A DNA stretch of 39,478 bases from Candidatus Rokuibacteriota bacterium (lineage in GTDB: Bacteria; Methylomirabilota; Methylomirabilia; Rokubacteriales; CSP1-6). Shown here one piece after another: positions 24,636 through 39,478 of the stretch. The stretch spans positions 1 to 39,478 of the forward strand of contig JACPIQ010000094.1 in the NCBI GenBank assembly GCA_016188005.1, in the 5' to 3' direction. The position numbers were made by a program, and so were the translations under genes. The notes below the pieces were generated by a model. The model was not told the DNA's origin, did no database searches, and saw only the letters and a list, made by a program, of their open reading frames with translations. The stretch's first letter is position 1; every line of letters starts with the position of its first letter.

Positions 24636-25975
24636 TCACACCGCGGGCTGGGCGTAGCCGACCGTGCGCCCGCCGTAGCGGCGCAGGCGCACATTGGCCT
24701 GCTCCGCATGCGCCGAGAAGCCCTCGAGCACGCAGAGCCGGGAGCAGTACTCCCCGACGAGGGCGCTGGCCTGGTCGGTCAGCACCCGCTGGTAGGTACA
24801 GGTCTTGAGGAACTTGCCGACCCAGAGGCCGCCCGTGTAGCGGGCCGCCTTCCTGGTGGGCAGCGTGTGGTTGGTGCCGATCACCTTGTCGCCGTAGGCG
24901 ACGTTGGTGCGCGGCCCCAGGAAGAGCGAGCCGTAATTGGTCATCCGGGCGAGGAAGTAGTCCGGGTCCCTGGTCATCACCTGGACGTGCTCGGAGGCGA
25001 TGCGGTCGGCCTCCCGCACCATCTCGTCGTCATCGTCGCAGACGATGACCTCCCCGTGGTCCGCCCACGCCCGGGCGGCGGCATCCGCCGTCGGCAGGAT
25101 CGTGAGCAGCCGCTCGACCTCGCCCAGGGTCGCGCGCGCGAGCCGCTCCGAGGTGGTGAGGAGGATCGCCGGAGAGGTCGGCCCGTGCTCCGCCTGGCCG
25201 AGGAGATCGGTGGCGCAGATCTCGCCGTCCACGGTCTCGTCGGCGATGACCAGCGTCTCGGTCGGCCCGGCGAGGAGATCGATGCCGACGCGCCCGAACA
25301 GCTGGCGCTTGGCCTCGGCGACATAGGCGTTGCCCGGCCCCACGATCATGGCGACGGGCGCGATGGTCTCGGTGCCGAGCGCCATGGCGGCCACCGCCTG
25401 CACGTGCCGAGCGCCATGGCGGCCACCGCCTGCACCCCCCCGAGGACGTAGATCTCGTCGGCGCCGCCCAGGTGCATCGCGGCGACGATGGCGGGATGCG
25501 GTCCACCCTTGAACGGCGGCGCGCAGGCGACGATGCGGCGCACGCCCGCGACCTTCGCGGTCACGATGGACATGTGGGCCGAGGCGACCATCGGATAGCG
25601 GCCGCCCGGCACGTAGCAGCCGATGCTGTTCACCGGGATGTGGCGGTGCCCGAGGATCACGCCGGGCAAGGTCTCGACCTCGAGGTCCTGCAGGGTCGCC
25701 TTCTGCCGTTCCGCGAAGTGGCGCACCTGCGCCTGGGCGAAGCGGATGTCCTCGAGATCGCGCGTGGCGACCCGTGCGACGGCGCGCTCGATCTCCTCCG
25801 GGCTCAGCCGGAAGCTCGCGGGTGACCACTGGTCGAGCCTCTGGGAGAGCTCCCGGACCGCGACGTCGCGGCGCGTCTCGATGTCGGCGAGCATCGCCTC
25901 GACGGTCTCGCGAACCTTGGTGTCGGCGGCCCTGATGGCGCCCGCGTCGATCCCGCGCTTGAGGTGGCGAGCCAT
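24636..25975 (-). pseudogene. Histidinol-dehydrogenase-family gene broken by a 32-bp tandem duplication
   Basis: The 5' part (from ATG 25975, with AGGAGG seven bases upstream) and the 3' part lie in different frames. They join if one copy of an exact 32-base tandem repeat (25372-25403 / 25404-25435) is removed. The repaired product is 435 residues, normal for HisD. Zn and catalytic motifs are intact: the Gln and His of GQAEHGP, the Glu-His of SEHVQVM, the Asp of [13 protein letters not shown] and the His of [10 protein letters not shown]. No his genes are near, so it may be a HisD paralogue oxidising another alcohol (HpsN, sulfopropanediol dehydrogenase, is one such paralogue) rather than the histidine-pathway enzyme. 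The lesion may be an assembly artefact. Confidence 0.82.
25372..25435. repeat. Exact 32-bp tandem duplication inside the hisD-like gene
   Basis: Two identical 32-base units, each starting GTGCCGAGC and ending CCGCCTGCAC, lie head to tail. The unit length is not a multiple of three, so the extra copy shifts the frame. With one copy the reading frame runs through [20 protein letters not shown] without interruption. Confidence 0.95.
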
Positions 25976-26202
25976 GGCGTCCTCCTGTCGCGAATGGAGC
26001 GTGGATGGGATGGGGCCAGCCGGGGACAATACTGGCATTGACGTGCCGGGGAAGGAAAGTCGGATCTCCCCCGAAGATTCAGCGTGACCTCGGCCGGGTC
26101 CTGGAGTATGACAAACTCCTACGCACCCACGGGGCTCCCGGCTGGCCGGCCGCAGGCCGCCCCGGGCGCTCCGGCAGGCGCCTGGCCCCAGGGAGGAGCC
26201 CC

Positions 26203-28328: not shown

Positions 28329-29186
28329 TCAGGTACGGGCAGGCGCGGGCTGGCTGGCCCGCTTCAACGTCTTCTCGCCGAAGCCCTCCTGCAGCGACTC
28401 GCCCGTGCCGTACAGCTCGAAGCCCGGGCCGAAGTCCTTGTCCTCCCACGAGCGGTCATCCGGGTCCCAGACATAGGGCAGAGTCAGGATCTGTCCCGGG
28501 GCCCAGAGCGTCTCGAAGGCCCTGAAGGCATCGAGCAGAATGCGGCGCCCGAGCGGGGCATCATCGGCCTTCCCCGTCTCGTGGTTGAGCGGGAAGTTGA
28601 TGAAGACCGCCCGGGGTGGCCTCACGGCAAAGGTGATGTCCCAGGCCGAGCTCATGCAGAGCGTGGGGATGCCGGCTCGCTCCACCTCGCGCGCGATCAG
28701 TCCCACGGACTGATGGCACACGGGTCAGACGGGGACGCAGAGTGCCGCCTCGGCCCCCATGGCCTTGAGCGCGGCGACCATCCCGGGCGCGCGCTCCTGG
28801 ACCTCCCGGCGATGGGAATAGACCATGACGAAGGAGAGCGCGCCCACCAGCTCGCCGATGACGCCGGCCGCTTCGAACTCGCGCAGCCTGTCCATGGGGA
28901 AGACGCAGTTGGGGTCGCGGTCGGCGTCGGCGTCGCGGTAGCCGTGGTGGTGGATCTTGAGGCGGCTCAGGTCCACGTCCTTCGGGAGCGTCCGGAACGA
29001 GATGTCGTTGTCCACGAAGGGCGCCTGCCCGGGGAGGTAGAAGCCGCCGGAGGTGATGACGGCGAGCCGGCAGTCCCTGAGCGGCTTGGCGAGCGGCGTC
29101 CACGGCGCCTCCGTGTTGATCGCCCACTTGTACGGGGCGAAGGCGGCGTAGCGCTCCTGGGTTCGCGGGATATAGGCGATGGGCAT
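28329..29186 (-). CDS. GrdB/PrdB-like reductase selenoprotein with in-frame UGA (Sec154)
   Basis: Reading through the TGA at 28725-28727 gives one 285-residue protein of the glycine/sarcosine/betaine/D-proline reductase selenoprotein B family (PF07355-like). The N-terminal part has the GGFYLPGQAPF and DISFRTLPKDVD blocks. Then ALCVPV-Sec-PVC places Sec154 in a Sec-x-x-Cys redox motif, followed at once by SVGLIAREVERAGIPTL and AVFINFPLNHETG, the conserved continuation. No stop, frame change or gap interrupts the flanks. A SECIS-like hairpin follows the UGA. In clostridial D-proline reductase PrdB the Sec sits at a similar position (about 151-152, from memory). No grdA, grdC/D or prdA is adjacent, so it is an orphan B-like subunit. 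GGAGG precedes the ATG; the gene follows the M24 gene by 90 bases. Confidence 0.85.
28696..28714 (-). promoter_or_regulatory. Bacterial SECIS-like hairpin
   Basis: On the minus-strand transcript a perfect eight-base stem, ATCAGTCC / GGACTGAT, encloses the loop GTG. The stem begins ten bases after the UGA and the loop starts 18 bases after it. Known bacterial SECIS rules ask for a loop roughly 16-37 bases from the UGA with a G in its first two positions, and this fits. It lies inside the coding region, as expected for SelB-dependent decoding. Confidence 0.75.
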
Positions 29187-29276
29187 GGGCTCCTCCTCCC
29201 GACCGGCCCGGCACGGCGGGCTGACCGGCTCCGGCTCCCCTCCTCAGTTAGCAGATCGGGCCCGGCGGAGCAAGCC

Positions 29277-30539
29277 CTACCCCACGTACACCTCGCAGCC
29301 GGGAATGCCGCAGGAGATGAGGTGATCGCTGGGGAAGTTGGTGATGAGCTCGCAGCCGTTCTCGGTCACCACGATCTCCTCCTCGATCCTCGCGGCGCCC
29401 GAGCCGTCGGCGGCGCCGCACCACGTCTCCACGGCAAAGACCATCCCCTCCTTGATCGTCTGGGGATGGTCGAAGGAGAACCGGCGCGAGATGATCGGAC
29501 GCTCCCAGGACCCCAGCCCGAGCCCGTGAGAGTACTGTAGCAGGAACGCCTCGGCCTCGTTCCGGTAGCCGAACTCCTCCGCCTTGGGCCAGACGGCCGC
29601 CACGTCCGCCGTGGTGATCCCGGGCTTGAAGACGTCGAGGGCCCGGCTCAGCCAGACAGAGGCCGTCTCGTAGGCCTCTTCCTGATACCGGTTGGGCTTG
29701 CCGCAGATGAACGTGCGGTAGTAGCAGGTCTTGTATCCCATGAACTGGACGACGGGATCATAGAACACCATGTCTCCCGCCTGGATCAGCCGGTCCGAGG
29801 GGGTATGCGGGTGGGGCCGTCCCCGGGGTCCCGTGACCGCCTGGATGAGCGGCACGCGATCCGCCCCCAGCCGGAGGAACTCGAAGGTCGCCATGGCGAC
29901 GAGGTCGCTCTCCTTGACTCCGGGGCGGATGGCCCGGACACAGCGGTCGTGTACCGCGTCGCCCAGGGATGCGGCCTGCTTCATGAGCTCGATCTCATCG
30001 GCCGTCTTGATCTCCCGGGCGTCCAGCATCGCCTGCGTGCCGTCCACGACCGTGATCCCCTCCTTCTCGAGGGCTCGCAGCATGGGGATCTCGCAGATAT
30101 CGATCCCCAGCGGCTCCTTCGCCACGCCGTAGTCCGTCAGCACCCGCTTGATCTGTCTGGCGAACTCCTGCTGAAGGTTGGCGGCGGGGGGCAGGGCGCC
30201 CTTGAGCGCAGTGATCGGGGCCGCCATCCGGTCTTCCATCCAGGGACAGGCGATCCGCTTCGCGGGCACCGCCGGGTCGAAGAGATAGGGCTTGCCCTCC
30301 CTGGCCAGGACGCAGTAGTGGTCCAGGAAGTCCCGGAACGCCTCCCCGATGTTCGTGCTCGTGATGTACCGGATGTTGTCCATGTCGAAACACAGGACGG
30401 CGCCCAGCCCCGCCGCCTTCACGGCCGCCTGGGCCCGCTGACACCGCTCCTGCCGTAGACGGTGGAAATCGATCCCGAGCTCGTAGTCCTTCGCCATCGT
30501 GCCCCATCGAGATCTCGCTTCCTTGACGTTGTATTTCAT
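29277..30539 (-). CDS. M24-family (creatinase/prolidase/DddP-like) enzyme, first paralogue
   Basis: A 420-residue protein with a creatinase-type N-domain (LCFDMDNIRYITST) and a C-terminal pita-bread fold. Of the usual five metal ligands, Asp261, His338 (QYSHGLGLG), Glu371 (FAVETW) and Glu386/387 (ARIEEEIVV) align. The second Asp, 11 residues after the first, is Cys272 (GYKTCYYRTF). A PHPH motif (residues 242-245) is shared with the second paralogue. Families with this layout include creatinase (no metal) and the DMSP lyase DddP, so a non-peptidase lyase or amidinohydrolase role is plausible. Start ATG has GGAGG five bases upstream. It lies between the aldehyde dehydrogenase and selenoprotein genes on one strand. 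Confidence 0.78.
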   Translation of the reverse strand: MKYNVKEARSRWGTMAKDYELGIDFHRLRQERCQRAQAAVKAAGLGAVLCFDMDNIRYITSTNIGEAFRDFLDHYCVLAREGKPYLFDPAVPAKRIACPWMEDRMAAPITALKGALPPAANLQQEFARQIKRVLTDYGVAKEPLGIDICEIPMLRALEKEGITVVDGTQAMLDAREIKTADEIELMKQAASLGDAVHDRCVRAIRPGVKESDLVAMATFEFLRLGADRVPLIQAVTGPRGRPHPHTPSDRLIQAGDMVFYDPVVQFMGYKTCYYRTFICGKPNRYQEEAYETASVWLSRALDVFKPGITTADVAAVWPKAEEFGYRNEAEAFLLQYSHGLGLGSWERPIISRRFSFDHPQTIKEGMVFAVETWCGAADGSGAARIEEEIVVTENGCELITNFPSDHLISCGIPGCEVYVG

Positions 30540-30604: not shown

Positions 30605-32083
30605 TCAGCGCATCACGAAGGGGTTGGCGGTCGGCGCACCGACGTTGATCCAGACGCTCTTCACCTGCAGGTACTCGCGGATCATCTCCTGGCCATTCTC
30701 GCGCCCGAGGCCCGAGTCCTTGTAGCCCCCGAAGGGGGACAGGTAGGAAACGGAGCGGTAGGTGTTCACCCAGACGGTGCCGACGCGGATCGCCTCGGCC
30801 ACGCGGAGCATGCGGGAGAGGTCACGCGTCCAGACGCCGGCGGCCAGGCCGAACCGGACGTCGTTCGCGATGCGGATCGCCTCGGCCTCGCTCCCGAAGC
30901 GGATGACGGAGAGGACCGGCCCGAACACCTCCTCCTGAGCGATGCGCATGGTGTTCTCGACTCCCGAAAAGATCGTCGGCTCGATGAACCAGCCGGCGCC
31001 GCACTCGGGGCGCGTCGCGCGCCCGCCGCCCAGCTCCAGCTTCGCCCCCTCCTTCAGCGCGATGTCGATGTAGCTCAGCACCTTGTCGTACTGCGGGCGG
31101 GTGGTGACCGGGCCGACCTGCGTCGAGTACTCGAGGGGATCGCCCATCCTCGCGGTCCGGGCGAGCGCGAGGAGCTTCTCCATGAAGGCGTCGTGGATGC
31201 TCTCCTGCAGGAGTAGCCGGCTGCCCGCGATGCATGTCTGTCCGGTGGCGGCGAAGATCCCGGACACGGCGCCGTTCACCGCGTCGTCCAGGTCGGCGTC
31301 CTCGAAGACGATGTTCGGGGACTTGCCGCCGAGCTCCATGGTCACGCGCTTGAAGTGCCGTGCCGCCGCCTCGTTGATGACGCGGCCGGTGGCGTCCGAG
31401 CCGGTGAAGGCGACCTTGGCGACGAGCGGGTGCTCGACCAGCGGCATGCCGACGTCCTTGCCGAAGCCCGTGACCACATTGACCACGCCCGGGGGGAAGC
31501 CGGCCTCCGCGACCAGCTTCACGAACTCCAGTGTGGACAGGGAGGTGAACTCGGAGGGCTTCACCACCACCGTGTTGCCCGCCGCCAGCGCCGGCGCCAG
31601 CTTGAATGCCAGGATCAGCAGCGGCGAGTTCCACGGACAGATCGCCGCGCAGACGCCGAGCGGCTCGGGGCGGGTGAAGTTGAAGTAGCCCTTCTTGTCG
31701 ATGGGGAGGACGGCGCCTTCGATCTTGTCCGCGAGGCCGCCGAAGTAGTAGTACCAGTTCGGCGCGTAGGCGAGCTGCGCGGCCATCTCGGCGATCAGCT
31801 TGCCGTTGTCGCGCACCTCCAGCTCCGCGAGTCGCCGGGCCTCACGCGCGACCAGATCCCCGAGCCGGCGGAGCAGGGCCCCGCGCTGGCTGGCGTTCAG
31901 GGCGGGCCAGGCGCCGTCGGTGAACGCCCGGTGCGCGGCCCGGACGGCACGATCGACGTCCGCGGCGTCGCCCCGCGCGACGAGCGCCCAGGGCTCACCG
32001 CGGTACGGGTCGTAGGACTCGAAGTACGCGCCGGACGCCGGGGCCACGAACTCGCCGTCGATGTAGTGCTGGGCCTTCTCCAT
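30605..32083 (-). CDS. NAD(P)-dependent aldehyde dehydrogenase
   Basis: A 492-residue ALDH-superfamily enzyme with all catalytic residues: Asn152 (CPWNSPL), Lys175 (VVVKPSE), Glu250 (MELGGKSPN) and the nucleophile Cys284 (GQTCIAGSR). The NAD-site block VAFTGSDATGRVI and the closing SPFGGYKDSGLGRENG are also present. It oxidises an aldehyde to the acid; sequence details do not fix the substrate, though betaine- and 2-hydroxymuconic-semialdehyde-like members share this overall pattern. ATG 32083 has GGAGG six bases upstream. It is the first gene of the leftward operon, divergent from iclR, followed by the M24 gene after 65 bases. Confidence 0.9.
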   Translation of the reverse strand: MEKAQHYIDGEFVAPASGAYFESYDPYRGEPWALVARGDAADVDRAVRAAHRAFTDGAWPALNASQRGALLRRLGDLVAREARRLAELEVRDNGKLIAEMAAQLAYAPNWYYYFGGLADKIEGAVLPIDKKGYFNFTRPEPLGVCAAICPWNSPLLILAFKLAPALAAGNTVVVKPSEFTSLSTLEFVKLVAEAGFPPGVVNVVTGFGKDVGMPLVEHPLVAKVAFTGSDATGRVINEAAARHFKRVTMELGGKSPNIVFEDADLDDAVNGAVSGIFAATGQTCIAGSRLLLQESIHDAFMEKLLALARTARMGDPLEYSTQVGPVTTRPQYDKVLSYIDIALKEGAKLELGGGRATRPECGAGWFIEPTIFSGVENTMRIAQEEVFGPVLSVIRFGSEAEAIRIANDVRFGLAAGVWTRDLSRMLRVAEAIRVGTVWVNTYRSVSYLSPFGGYKDSGLGRENGQEMIREYLQVKSVWINVGAPTANPFVMR

Positions 32084-32302
32084 GGTCGCCTCCGTTCGAG
32101 CGCGCGCTGGCGCGGCGTCAGCGGGCGACGGGGTCACGGAATCGCGGACGGCGGCCGGCGGCGAGGCGGCGATCGAGCGCCGGGTCCCGGCCGCTGCGCG
32201 CCGCCTGCACGCTGCGCAGAAACATGACTGGCATTCTCCGCGGCGCCGCCAAGGGGCGTCAAGGGATTTCTCGCACGGCCGTGATGCGTTGACGGGACGA
32301 AA

Positions 32303-32409: not shown

Positions 32410-33288
32410 ATGAAGAGGCGCGCTCACGTCCCGGGCCGCGGTTACACGCGGACCGCGTCCCTCCTGGCCGCCCTCGTGGACCAGCCCGAGGGGATCACCG
32501 CATCGACCCTGGCGCAGCGCCTCGACATCCCGAAGAGCACCCTGTCGCTGATCCTCCGGCACTTCCTGGAGCTGGGGATCGTCGAGCGGGCGCACGAGCG
32601 TGCCGGCGTCGTGATCGGGCCGCAGCTCGTCAGGCTCGCGTTCCGGATCGTCTCGAACCTGCAGCTGCCCCGCGTGGCCCGGCCGCATCTCGAATGGCTC
32701 GCGCGCGAGACGCATGAGAACGTCTATCTCGGAGTGCAGAGCGGGCTCAAGGCCATCTACATCGACCGGATCGATGGGACGGAATCCGTTCGCGTCAACG
32801 TCGAGATCGGCGCGCCGCGCCCGCTGCATGCCACCGCCATCGGGAAGCTGATCCTCGCGTTCTCCCCGCCCTCCCTCCCGGAGGCCGTCCGGCGGGTGGA
32901 AGGGCTCCCGGCGATGACGCCACACACGATCACGGACCCGATCCGGCTGCGGCGCGAGCTGCAGGAGGTCCGGAGGCGGGGGTTCGCCACCAGCGACGGC
33001 GAGAACATCGACGGGATCTACGCGATCGCCGTACCGATCATCGTGCGCGGCCGGATCGTCGCCGGCATCTGCATCTCCGTGCCCGGGTCGCAGGGGCTGC
33101 GGCACCGGCCGCGCTGGGCCCCGAAGATGCTCAGGGCGGCCCAGCGCATCGGTCGAGACCTCGCGGGTCATCCCCAGCCGAACGGCTCGGCCCCGGGCCG
33201 GGGCGACTGGGGCCCGGCGGGGCGGAGACGGACCCGGGGCCTCGGCCGCCGGCGGGCGTCGGCGAGATCGGAGTCCCGGGGCGGCTGA
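32410..33288 (+). CDS. IclR-family transcriptional regulator
   Basis: A 292-residue regulator. The N-terminal winged helix-turn-helix (residues 12-66) reads TASLLAALVDQPEGITASTL then KSTLSLILRHFLELGIVER. The C-terminal GAF-like effector domain (about 80-265) has ENVYLGVQSGLKAIYIDRID, then PLHATAIGKLILAF, the hallmark IclR block, and YAIAVPIIVRGRIVAGICIS. The last 30 residues are an Arg/Gly-rich tail. It stands between the divergent operons and has an operator just upstream, so it probably controls itself, the E1 operon and possibly the aldehyde dehydrogenase operon. The ligand is unknown, likely a small acid from the pathway. Confidence 0.92.
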   Translation: MKRRAHVPGRGYTRTASLLAALVDQPEGITASTLAQRLDIPKSTLSLILRHFLELGIVERAHERAGVVIGPQLVRLAFRIVSNLQLPRVARPHLEWLARETHENVYLGVQSGLKAIYIDRIDGTESVRVNVEIGAPRPLHATAIGKLILAFSPPSLPEAVRRVEGLPAMTPHTITDPIRLRRELQEVRRRGFATSDGENIDGIYAIAVPIIVRGRIVAGICISVPGSQGLRHRPRWAPKMLRAAQRIGRDLAGHPQPNGSAPGRGDWGPAGRRRTRGLGRRRASARSESRGG

Positions 33289-33301: not shown

Positions 33302-34567
33302 ATGGGGACGCCACCGATCCCGCACTCCACCGCGCCCGTCTTGGGATCCGAGCCGCAGCCGCGGCTGCCCATCGAGGGGCTCGTCGTCGCCGACCTGACC
33401 CAGAACGTCGCGGGCCCCTTCTGCACGCAGATCCTCGGCGACATGGGCGCCGAGGTCGTCAAGGTCGAGCGGGCGGGGCGGGGCGATGAGGCCCGGGCCT
33501 GGGGCCCGCCGTTCTGGGGCGGGGAGAGCGCGGCCTTCCTCGCCATGAACCGGAACAAGCGCAGCCTGGCCCTGGACCTCAAGCAGCCGGCCGGGATCGA
33601 GGTGCTGCGGCGGCTGATCGCGCGCGCCGACGTGTTCGTGCAGAGCCTGCGCCCCGGTGCCGTGCGCAAGCTGGGGCTCGACTACGCGGGCGCCGCGGCC
33701 CTGAACCCGCGGCTGGTGTACTGCTCCGTCACCGCCTTCGGCGCGCGTGGGCCCCTGCGCGACCAGCCGGGCTACGACCCGCTCTTGCAGGCCTACGGCG
33801 GGCTCATGTCGGTGAACGGCCACCCGGACCAGGAGCCGGCCCGTGTCGGCACCTCCATCGTCGACATGGGAACGGGCATGTGGGCGGCCCTTGGCATCGT
33901 GGCCGCGCTCCGGGAGCGAGACGCGACGGGGCGAGGCGTCGAGGTGACGACCGCCCTGTTCGACACCGCCCTCATGTGGATGTCCTACCACGCCATCGGG
34001 TACCTGGGCTCCGGCGAGCTCCCCCAGCGCTGCGGCTCCGGCTCCGCGATGATCGTGCCCTACCAGGCCTTCCCCGCCACCGACGGGCCGGTGATGATCG
34101 CCGCCGGCTCGGACGCGCTCTTCCGGCGGCTGGCCGCCGCGCTCGGGGCTCCCGAGCTCGCCGACGATCTCCGGTTCCGCGACAATCCCTCGCGCGTCCG
34201 GCACCGGGGGCCCCTGGTGGAGGCCCTCTCCGCGCGCACCCGGACCCATCGGAGCCCGGAGCTGGTGGAGCTGCTGCGACGCGCCGGGGTGCCGGCCGCG
34301 CCCGTCCTCGGCGTCGACGCGGTGATGGCGGAGCCCCAGACGCGGCAGAGCGGCGTGGTCGTGAGTACCCCGCATCCGCGGCTGCCGGACTACCGGAGCA
34401 TCGCGCTGCCGATCGAGTGGGACCGGATGCGTCCGCCGGTGCGGCGCGTGCCGCCCGCCCTGGGAGAGCACACGGACGAGGTCCTCGCGTGGCTCGGCTA
34501 CGACGGGAACGAGATCGCGCGCCTCCGCTGCGGGGACGCGTTCGCATGCAGCGAGGAGGCCCGGTAG
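33302..34567 (+). CDS. Class III CoA-transferase (CaiB/BaiF family)
   Basis: A 421-residue family III CoA-transferase. Landmarks: VADLTQNVAGPFCTQILGDM, then GAEVVKVERAGRGDEAR, then NRNKRSLALDLKQPAG, and the catalytic aspartate Asp188 in VGTSIVDMGTGMWAALG. These enzymes move CoA between carboxylic acids via a glutamyl/aspartyl-CoA intermediate. It would activate the acid made by the aldehyde dehydrogenase or a related pathway acid. It lies 13 bases after iclR on the same strand. No strong ribosome site is visible at ATG 33302. DddD of DMSP catabolism belongs to the same fold family but is about twice as long, so this is not DddD. Confidence 0.9.
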   Translation: MGTPPIPHSTAPVLGSEPQPRLPIEGLVVADLTQNVAGPFCTQILGDMGAEVVKVERAGRGDEARAWGPPFWGGESAAFLAMNRNKRSLALDLKQPAGIEVLRRLIARADVFVQSLRPGAVRKLGLDYAGAAALNPRLVYCSVTAFGARGPLRDQPGYDPLLQAYGGLMSVNGHPDQEPARVGTSIVDMGTGMWAALGIVAALRERDATGRGVEVTTALFDTALMWMSYHAIGYLGSGELPQRCGSGSAMIVPYQAFPATDGPVMIAAGSDALFRRLAAALGAPELADDLRFRDNPSRVRHRGPLVEALSARTRTHRSPELVELLRRAGVPAAPVLGVDAVMAEPQTRQSGVVVSTPHPRLPDYRSIALPIEWDRMRPPVRRVPPALGEHTDEVLAWLGYDGNEIARLRCGDAFACSEEAR

Positions 34568-34665: not shown

Positions 34666-35751
34666 ATGAAGGCAGCCGTCTACCACGACACGGCGGATAT
34701 CCGGATCGAGGCCGTGCCCGATCCCATCCTGGCGGCGGGGGAGCTGATTCTCGAGGTCCACGCGGCGGGGATCTGCGGCACGGATGTCACCGAGTACCTG
34801 CGCGGGCCGATCCAGTACCCCATCCACTCCCGCCATCCTGTCACCGGCCACCTCGGCCCGATGATTCCGGGCCACGAGGTCGCGGGGCGGATCGTCGCCA
34901 TGGGCGCCGGCGTGGACGGGTTCGAGGTCGGACAGGTGGTGGCGAGCGGCGCGGGAATCTCCTGCGGCACCTGCGAGCCGTGCGCGGCCGGCCAGACGAA
35001 CCTCTGCGTCCACTACTGCACGGTGGGCCTGGAGCGACACGGCGGGCTCGCTCAGTTCTGCGCGGTTCCCGCCAGCACCTGCCTCAGCGGGGAGCCACTC
35101 GGGCTGGACGAGGAGACCGCGGCCCTGGCGCAGCCCATGGCCATCGCCGTGCACTCCATGCGCCGGGGCCGGCTGCGCCCGCAGGACGAAGCCGTGATCA
35201 TCGGTGCCGGCGGCATCGGGGCGTTCCTGACCTATGCGGCGGCCGCGCTGGGCGCCAGGGTGACCGTCGTGGACGTGGTGCCAGAGCGCCTTAGGCTGGC
35301 GGCCGACCTGGGTGCGGCGGAGACGCTCCTCCCAACGTCCGATTCGCCGCTGGCGGAGCAGCTCCGCGACCGGGGTGTCCAGCCGGCAGTCGTGTACGAG
35401 GTCGTCGGCGGCGAGCGAACGGTGACCGGCGCGCTCGAGGCCGTCCTGCCAGGGGGCCGGGTGGTGCTCGTGGGCCTGCACGACGACCCCCGCAGCCTCG
35501 ACCTGCGGCGCGTGACGACCGGCGAGATGGAGCTCGTCGGGACCAAGGCGCATGCATGCGGCGTGGACCTGCCGGAGGCCCTGCGGCTCCTGGGCTCCCG
35601 CCGCGGGCGCTGGACCGACATCGCCCCGACGATGCTCCCGCTCGAGCGGCTCGTCGAGGACGGCATCCTGCCCATCGCCGAGCGGCGAAGCGACCGCGTG
35701 AAGACCCTCATCGACCCGTGGGCGGCCGCCTCGCGCGGGAGGGCGCGCTGA
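34666..35751 (+). CDS. Zinc-dependent alcohol dehydrogenase (2,3-butanediol/threonine dehydrogenase-like)
   Basis: A 361-residue medium-chain dehydrogenase. Catalytic Zn ligands are visible as Cys37 (GICGTD) and His70-Glu71 (IPGHEVAG). The structural Zn lobe has Cys100, 103, 106 and 114 (CGTCEPCAAGQTNLC). The NAD-binding turn is VIIGAGGIGAFL. The extra stretch RHPVTGHLGPMIPGHE between residues 56 and 71 is typical of the (R,R)-butanediol dehydrogenase branch. That suits the acetoin-dehydrogenase-like E1 genes that follow; this link is inference. ATG 34666 has GGGGAGGG six bases upstream. It is separated from the E1 operon by 238 bases with its own control region. Confidence 0.87.
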   Translation: MKAAVYHDTADIRIEAVPDPILAAGELILEVHAAGICGTDVTEYLRGPIQYPIHSRHPVTGHLGPMIPGHEVAGRIVAMGAGVDGFEVGQVVASGAGISCGTCEPCAAGQTNLCVHYCTVGLERHGGLAQFCAVPASTCLSGEPLGLDEETAALAQPMAIAVHSMRRGRLRPQDEAVIIGAGGIGAFLTYAAAALGARVTVVDVVPERLRLAADLGAAETLLPTSDSPLAEQLRDRGVQPAVVYEVVGGERTVTGALEAVLPGGRVVLVGLHDDPRSLDLRRVTTGEMELVGTKAHACGVDLPEALRLLGSRRGRWTDIAPTMLPLERLVEDGILPIAERRSDRVKTLIDPWAAASRGRAR

Positions 35752-38232: not shown

Positions 38233-38418
38233 ATGCCCGGCGAGAAGGCGGAGCTGCCGCCGCGCGCCACGCGGGGGCCCGGCGCGCCGGCCCAGCGCAT
38301 GGCGCCGCGCGGCCTCGGACTCGCGACGGAGGACTGCGCGGCGATCGTCGCCGTGGTCGCGGGCATGGGTGGCCCGCGGGGCACCAGCCAACGGTCGGGA
38401 CAGAACGGAGGCGCGTGA
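38233..38418 (+). CDS. 61-residue frame between lipoyl protein and M24 gene, uncertain
   Basis: The frame fills the gap exactly: it starts seven bases after the lipoyl stop and its TGA overlaps the ATG of the M24 gene (ATGA). The product is Pro/Gly/Ala/Arg-rich. PAQRMAPRGLGL followed by VAGMGGPRGT faintly recalls the 'PAARRLARELGVDL...GTGPGGRI' pattern of E2 subunit-binding domains, with an insertion of about nine residues. There is no ribosome site. It may be a relic of an E2 protein, a small E1-binding partner, or noncoding sequence that is open by chance. Confidence 0.3.
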   Translation: MPGEKAELPPRATRGPGAPAQRMAPRGLGLATEDCAAIVAVVAGMGGPRGTSQRSGQNGGA

Positions 38419-39478
38419 TGGGGCTCCACACCTACGGCAGCATGAGCGTGGACTGGGAAGAGCGCGTGAACGTCGAGCGGCTCCGCCGGGAGCGCCTGGC
38501 GCGCGCGCAGGCGCAGCTCGAGGCCTCGGAGCTCGGCGGCCTCCTCTGCTTCGACATGTACAACATCCGCTACATCACCAGCACGCTCATCGGCACCTGG
38601 GCGCTCGACAAGCTGTCGCGCTTCTGCCTCCTGCCGCGGGGCGCCGAGCCCATCATGTGGGACTTCGGGTCAGCCGCGCGGCACCACGAGCTCCACTGCC
38701 CGTGGATGGGTGAGGGGCGCTCGCGCGCCGGCATCGCGCTGCTGCGCGGCGCCATGACGCCGGCGATGGGGCGGGCGGAGGACGTGGCGCGGAAGATCAA
38801 GCGCGAGCTCGAGATGCGGGGGCTCGACAAGGCCCCGCTCGGCGTGGACATGATGGAGCCGCCCGTCTTCTACGCGCTGCAGAAGGAGGGCATCACGGTC
38901 GTCGACGGCCAGCAGGTCATGCAGGCCGCCCGGCGCATCAAGACGCGGGACGAGATCACGCTGCTGAACACCTCCGCGGCGATGGTGGACGCCGCCTACG
39001 AGGAGCTCTACCGCGCCATGCGCCCCGGCGTCGCGGAGAACGAGCTGGTCGGGCTCGTGGCGAAGACGCTCCACGACCTGGGCTCGGAGGGCGTCGAGAC
39101 CGTCAACGCCGTCAGCGGCGAGCGCTGCAACCCGCACCCGCACATCTTCTCGGACCGTGTCCTGCGCCCCGGCGATCCCGCCTACTTCGACATCTGCCAT
39201 TCGTTCACGGGCTACCGGACGTGCTACTACCGCACCTTCGCGGTCGGCAGCGCCTCCGCCGCCATGGGCGACGCCTACACGCGCTGCCGCGAGGACCTGG
39301 ACCGGGCCATCGCCATGATCAAGCCGGGCATCACCACCGCCGACATCGCCAGCATCTGGCCGCGCGCCCAGGAGTTCGGCTTCCCCAACGAGGAGTCGTG
39401 CTTCGGGCTCCAGTACGGCCACGGCGTGGGGCTCAACGGGTGGGAGCAGCCGGTGATCAGCCGCCTGGTCTCCCTGGA
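38418..39478 (+). CDS. M24-family (creatinase/prolidase/DddP-like) enzyme, second paralogue (3' end outside window)
   Basis: The first 353 residues are visible. They are clearly homologous to the gene at 29277-30539: LLCFDMYNIRYITSTLIG, the NPHPH motif at 238-242, and YFDICHSFTGYRTCYYRTF. The His ligand is seen in LQYGHGVGLNGWEQPVI. The first metal Asp (258) is present but the second, expected 11 residues later, is Cys269, the same replacement as in the first paralogue. The two glutamate ligands lie beyond the window. DddP-type DMSP lyases and other non-peptidase M24 enzymes have a similar N-domain. Start ATG overlaps the preceding stop and has GGAGG a few bases upstream. It belongs to the E1/lipoyl operon. 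Confidence 0.8.
   Translation, partial: MGLHTYGSMSVDWEERVNVERLRRERLARAQAQLEASELGGLLCFDMYNIRYITSTLIGTWALDKLSRFCLLPRGAEPIMWDFGSAARHHELHCPWMGEGRSRAGIALLRGAMTPAMGRAEDVARKIKRELEMRGLDKAPLGVDMMEPPVFYALQKEGITVVDGQQVMQAARRIKTRDEITLLNTSAAMVDAAYEELYRAMRPGVAENELVGLVAKTLHDLGSEGVETVNAVSGERCNPHPHIFSDRVLRPGDPAYFDICHSFTGYRTCYYRTFAVGSASAAMGDAYTRCREDLDRAIAMIKPGITTADIASIWPRAQEFGFPNEESCFGLQYGHGVGLNGWEQPVISRLVSL

Follow-up and report, generated by a model that had tools for sequence, protein, structure and literature searches.

A predicted stand-alone PrdB-like selenoprotein of Candidatus Rokuibacteriota, from a clade with recurrent CoA-transferase neighbours

The window analyzed here is the whole stretch of 39,478 nucleotides from contig JACPIQ010000094.1 of Candidatus Rokuibacteriota assembly GCA_016188005.1. 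On its minus strand lies a PrdB-like gene (28332–29186), assigned on the basis of TIGR04483, PF07355 and its orthologues. The frame starts at the ATG at 29186, runs for 285 codons with a single interruption, a TGA at 28725–28727, and closes at the TGA at 28329–28331. Under the standard code it falls apart into two open reading frames of 153 and 130 residues. The preliminary description had proposed that two same-frame segments on the minus strand, split only by this TGA, make up one gene; re-reading the frame returned the same coordinates, motif and readthrough sequence. The internal codon, which is TGA in the homologues extracted from the phylum as well, would encode Sec154, the first residue of a UxxC motif (U-P-V-C). 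The readthrough product reads ...ALCVPV-U-PVCHQSVGLIAREVERAGIPTL..., placing U154 in the context LCVPV-U-PVC-HQSVGLIAREVERAGIPTL. A Shine-Dalgarno-like sequence, GGGAGGAGGAG, lies upstream of the ATG at 29190–29200 (minus strand). The coding sequences of orthologues close with TGA or TAG near the corresponding position, and for this reason the TGA at 28329–28331 is treated as the true stop.

Upstream on the same strand, and probably on the same transcript, is an M24-family metallohydrolase (29277–30539), and further upstream a BADH-like aldehyde dehydrogenase that scores below the equivalog cut-off (30605–32101; its start is uncertain, as the frame is open from 32398). Divergent from this operon, on the plus strand, are an IclR-type regulator (32410–33288), a family III (CaiB-like) CoA-transferase (33302–34567; PF02515, 425.7 bits) and a zinc-dependent medium-chain alcohol dehydrogenase (34666–35751), homologues of which lie near the PrdB-like gene at four other loci (L047, L062, L063 and L065). 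The CoA-transferase of the window is thus in the divergent operon and does not adjoin the PrdB-like gene. The window also contains the complex I subunit genes mentioned in the preliminary description, in line with a respiratory genome. A second M24-family protein, related to the first, is encoded at 38415–39476 (plus strand) beside E1 dehydrogenase genes. An exact 32-bp tandem duplication (25372–25403 and 25404–25435) breaks a histidinol-dehydrogenase-family gene (hisD; 24639–26038, minus strand) into two frames; this is either a real disruption or an assembly error.

One reading of the local arrangement is that the M24 enzyme and the BADH-like dehydrogenase form a catabolic operon of the betaine, ectoine or DMSP type, and that the PrdB-like reductase acts on their product as the last step. 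The three genes share a strand, with gaps of only 66 and 90 nt and an IclR-type regulator adjoining, and the M24 enzyme is distantly similar to DddP and DoeA, the dehydrogenase to BADH. All of these similarity scores, however, are far below the equivalog cut-offs; DddP itself was rejected as the identity of the M24 enzyme, which scored 103.8 bits where the cut-off is 600. Moreover, homologues of the M24 enzyme or the aldehyde dehydrogenase were not detected beside the 19 other genes scanned from groups A and B of the family (below). Even within the genus, the orthologue L047, at 91% identity, is preceded by other genes and has no homologue of either enzyme beside it. We therefore rejected the pair as a conserved unit. 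Being found only here, these neighbors are weak evidence of function, and the hint that the preliminary description took from them gives way to a different neighbor that does recur, the CoA-transferase. An operon of this kind is an unlikely explanation of the gene.

By sequence, the protein belongs to the GrdB/PrdB superfamily, as first proposed. The best profile is TIGR04483 (PrdB), which matches residues 23–240 with 130.6 bits, short of the equivalog cut-off of 300 bits, and PF07355 matches with 30.7 bits, above its cut-off of 22. Five NCBIfam models of the superfamily match with E-values from 3.6e-11 to 5.9e-38, and the same models match all 19 members of a wider alignment. UxxC or CxxC is aligned at the catalytic column. 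Several residues besides this motif are invariant across groups. In a tree of 101 sequences, the window protein falls in a clade (support 0.99) made up of its orthologues (group A) and a group with UQLC (group B). Group E, inside which the alphaproteobacterial homologues with cysteine are nested, is the sister of this A/B clade. The clostridial and lactobacillar PrdB proteins, together with L118 and L140, form a separate clade (support 0.993), and the full-length GrdB proteins of the phylum form a third, on a long branch. The gene is thus placed by its sequence in a PrdB-like branch of the superfamily, outside the true clostridial PrdB clade. No relative turned up among solved structures compared by sequence; the matches were a kinase and a designed repeat protein. 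An AlphaFold model from four sequences had a mean pLDDT of 53, too low to be usable, and a Foldseek search with it gave no match at E ≤ 0.001 and mixed folds. A scan of viral contigs found none.

Comparison with known relatives points to both kinship and divergence. PrdB, the 26-kDa selenocysteine-containing subunit of D-proline reductase of Clostridium sticklandii and C. difficile, shares with the window protein the UxxC motif, a UGA-encoded selenocysteine and a similar length. Annotated clostridial PrdB is about 30% identical to it, has UGTC in place of UPVC, and lacks a C-terminal extension of about 45 residues. The selenoprotein B subunits of glycine, sarcosine and betaine reductases (GrdB, GrdF and GrdH; PF07355) belong to the same superfamily and carry selenocysteine in UxxC, but the window protein corresponds to their C-terminal half only. 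Among Alphaproteobacteria, Roseomonas (WP_207415257.1) and Haematobacter (WP_035710215.1) encode stand-alone proteins, annotated as 'Glycine/sarcosine/betaine reductase selenoprotein B family protein', that are about 34% identical to the window protein; they have CPVC or CPIC at the same column, with cysteine (TGC) for selenocysteine and no SECIS hairpin.

Other members of the superfamily vary around this theme. The genome (G000) encodes a second PrdB-like selenoprotein (G000:C73:7077-7832; L002, L013), 38% identical to the first and in group C, with the motif UPVCHQSGG. It lies upstream of rplU-obgE-proB-proA and is preceded by a TetR-like gene, and this order recurs in roughly a dozen of the phylum's genomes. 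Three loci (L110, L115 and L117) represent a subfamily of 397-residue PrdB-like selenoproteins with UPFC or UPNC followed by THTGG and an extra C-terminal region of about 110 residues. Five full-length GrdB-like proteins (L124, L126, L131, L133 and L134) have UGTS for UGTC, having lost the first resolving cysteine; GrdA is present in many genomes with such proteins. A PrdB gene on a Paraclostridium bifermentans plasmid (L147, 4001–4660) has TGT (cysteine) at the selenocysteine column and is unannotated in its record.

Homologues of the PrdB-like gene were found in 68 of the 95 genomes scanned from the phylum, often in several copies each, and nearly all have a TGA inside the match. In the homologues extracted, this codon is TGA in all 95 and TAA or TAG in none. 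The 14 orthologues, which are 62–91% identical, all have the TGA at one alignment column. Downstream of the TGA, pN is 0.14 and pS 0.44 (pN/pS about 0.33) among the orthologues, compared with 0.19 and 0.48 upstream, and 52 of the next 90 columns are invariant. Judged by these substitution patterns, the segment beyond the TGA evolves as protein under purifying selection. The preliminary description had pointed to conserved sequence immediately after the UGA, and had allowed that close homologues might instead use the codon as an ordinary stop with an unconserved downstream part; the homologues conserve that part. It had also asked whether the column holds selenocysteine or cysteine, and both occur, TGA in the 95 homologues and TGC in two from Alphaproteobacteria.

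Immediately downstream of the UGA, the message can fold into a bacterial SECIS-like hairpin (28696–28714, minus strand), consisting of 8 bp closed by a GUG loop (AUCAGUCC GUG GGACUGAU) and starting 10 nt after the UGA. This position agrees with that described for bacterial SECIS elements (PMC9312934). Across 74 distinct sequences, 91% of the hairpin cells are paired, compared with 12–45% when one arm is slid along the other. Pair 19-27 is U-A where one side encodes Ser, A-U where it encodes Thr and G-C where it encodes Ala; the partner codon is Gly in each case, changed silently, or alternatively Ser opposite Thr. Pair 15-31 is U-A or C-G across homologues. The mean hairpin energy is -10.2 kcal/mol, compared with -4.3 ± 0.3 kcal/mol when synonymous codons are resampled, and this null was rejected. 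In the two alphaproteobacterial homologues with cysteine (TGC), the peptide encoded here is almost identical and the hairpin is missing, with energies of -1 to -2 kcal/mol. We infer that the covarying hairpin next to the UGA is a SECIS-like element.

The genome, which is 98% complete with 4.7% contamination, encodes the whole set of selenocysteine genes (selA, selB, selC and selD) that the preliminary description named as a check and whose absence would have counted against it. Its named relatives, identified by sequence, are Candidatus Rokubacteria, a group belonging to the phylum Methylomirabilota. Contig C4 has a selC-selA-selB cluster (tRNA-Sec, 69.3 bits, anticodon TCA; selA, 577 bits; selB, 364 bits), and selD (348 bits) is on contig C86 (G000:C86:102037-102972). 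The selD gene has one in-frame TGA and is thus probably a selenoprotein gene itself. Across the phylum, co-occurrence of selA with the PrdB-like family is only suggestive (Fisher p 0.07), and the genomes with UGA-containing genes but without selA are at most 85% complete. Because four independent lines agree (the machinery, the conservation of the TGA, the hairpin and its absence from the cysteine homologues), the gene almost certainly encodes a selenoprotein in which the UGA is read as selenocysteine, as was first suggested. A split frame could also arise from a pseudogene or a sequencing error, the TGA being a true stop in a decayed gene, and hisD in the same window does have a disrupted frame. 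But a decaying gene would not be expected to keep TGA, to the exclusion of TAA and TAG, at a single codon across 95 homologues, with purifying selection on both sides, a covarying hairpin and a full selenocysteine machinery in the genome. Pseudogene and frameshift were rejected on these grounds, and we give them negligible probability.

A protein of this superfamily with the common UxxC active site could also be the B component of an ordinary D-proline, glycine, sarcosine or betaine reductase whose partner genes lie in another part of the genome. Such partners do occur in the phylum, GrdA in 16 of 95 genomes and the pyruvoyl-type PF09338 in 20 of 95; where examined, these accompany the separate full-length GrdB lineage. 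In this genome, however, profile searches returned no match to PrdA (TIGR04480), GrdA or PF09338, and PrdA scored above its cut-off in none of the 95 genomes. For comparison, annotated prdA adjoins prdB in Ligilactobacillus and Terrisporobacter records. The true clostridial PrdB is, moreover, in a different clade of the tree. The missing partners and the tree placement largely refute a true D-proline or glycine reductase, which we regard as very improbable. With none of the three partners in the assembly, the description of the gene as an orphan, a lone B-like subunit, holds.

Genomic context offers a different lead. A family III CoA-transferase gene adjoins the PrdB-like gene on the same strand, at 9–214 nt, in 15 of the 32 A/B/E-clade loci (group A, 5/13; B, 3/7; E1, 2/6; E2, 5/6) and in none of the 33 loci from other groups. 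The difference has a Fisher p of 2.7e-6, uncorrected for relatedness, and the loci are not phylogenetically independent. The CoA-transferase is upstream in the group A genus g14, in L050/L053 and in E1, and downstream in B and E2, indicating at least five separate arrangements. Genome G000 has about 35–41 copies of the family, giving a chance adjacency of about 1.5% per locus. In eight of the 13 group A loci, no same-strand CoA-transferase directly adjoins the PrdB-like gene; contig ends truncate some of them, and in one the CoA-transferase is convergent. In several of the loci with a CoA-transferase, acyl-CoA dehydrogenases, enoyl-CoA hydratase, AMP-forming acyl-CoA synthetases or methylmalonyl-CoA mutase are encoded near the PrdB-like gene. 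In family f10, which we take to be Methylomirabilis (L060, at G025:C1:907090-907854, L061 and L066), the gene lies alone among housekeeping genes, flanked by clpB-like and by glyA/nrdR-like genes; no CoA-transferase is encoded there.

D-proline reductase activates the substrate nitrogen through the pyruvoyl group of PrdA, and the selenocysteine of PrdB attacks the alpha carbon. As the usual partners are missing, the PrdB-like protein, presumably a reductase judging from its family, is expected to catalyze a different reaction. Lacking a pyruvoyl partner, it would need a substrate that brings its own activation, and the recurring CoA-transferase suggests that this substrate is a CoA thioester or the corresponding acid. 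A mechanism can be outlined on this basis. SelA, SelB, tRNA-Sec and SelD would read the UGA at 28725–28727 as selenocysteine, directed by the hairpin 10 nt downstream. The selenolate would attack an electrophilic carbon beside a carboxyl or CoA-thioester group, expelling the alpha substituent as the leaving group. Cys157 of the UxxC motif would then resolve the resulting selenoether or selenosulfide, and a thiol reductant would regenerate the Sec/Cys pair. A family III CoA-transferase, encoded within the operon or close to it, may supply or recycle the CoA-activated substrate, and CoA activation could stand in for the pyruvoyl imine of D-proline reductase.

Our confidence differs among the parts of this proposal. 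For the whole explanation, an intact stand-alone selenoprotein that works without pyruvoyl partners of the PrdA or GrdE type and without GrdA, including the CoA-linked mechanism, we consider the chances evenly poised. That the protein carries out PrdA-independent, selenocysteine-based reductive cleavage within acid or acyl-CoA catabolism is a tentative proposal, more probably wrong than right. Slightly more tentative still is the idea of a PrdA- and GrdA-independent branch in respiring bacteria, in which selenocysteine cleaves CoA- or otherwise carboxyl-activated substrates and a CoA-transferase replaces the pyruvoyl group.

A different function, detoxification, might also be proposed: a thiol/selenol oxidoreductase that scavenges peroxides, disulfides or electrophiles, using UxxC in the manner of thioredoxin-type selenoproteins. 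The motif itself, the multiple stand-alone paralogues per genome and the occurrence in respiring organisms and aerobic Alphaproteobacteria would all suit such a role. The protein has, however, no sequence relation to thioredoxin-fold families, and the genes that recur next to members of its clade encode CoA-transferases and acyl-CoA enzymes, not stress functions. The invariant residues outside UxxC are also as expected for a substrate-specific enzyme. We consider detoxification possible but rather doubtful, a little more so than CoA-linked cleavage.

The family of PrdB-like selenoproteins is not new. Marine UxxC selenoproteins named 'proline reductase PrdB' (pfam07355) were counted in metagenomes from 2005 onwards, 42 in the Sargasso Sea (PMC1088965) and 235 in the GOS data (PMC2398784), and a 2026 review mentions a Methylomirabilota genome with 63 predicted selenoproteins (PMC13188914). 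Given this record, a UGA-split PrdB-like gene in the present genome is not surprising by itself. The gene was called hidden in the preliminary description, which is right for gene finders, as they would see two open reading frames, but not for the literature, where stand-alone PrdB-like UxxC selenoproteins have long been counted (PMC1088965, PMC2398784). In the portions of the two metagenome papers that concern marine PrdB, D-proline reduction is assigned by homology, with no discussion of genome context, subfamilies or missing partners (PMC1088965, PMC2398784). In the open-licence papers searched we found no description of a partnerless clade distinct from true PrdB, of a covarying SECIS element with a cysteine control, or of a recurrent CoA-transferase neighbor.

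PrdB-like proteins ranked with the commonest selenoprotein families of ocean metagenomes, where they have been read as D-proline reductase. As the phylum is full of PrdB-like genes while none of its 95 genomes has PrdA above the cut-off, for this part of the family, at the least, such an interpretation is probably mistaken. If the CoA-linked cleavage proposed here is correct, 'PrdB' in many metagenome annotations would denote a different enzyme. The recurrent CoA-transferase neighbor is a first clue to the actual reaction that can be put to the test, and because cysteine homologues occur in cultivable aerobic Alphaproteobacteria, the function of the PrdB-like proteins is open to genetics.
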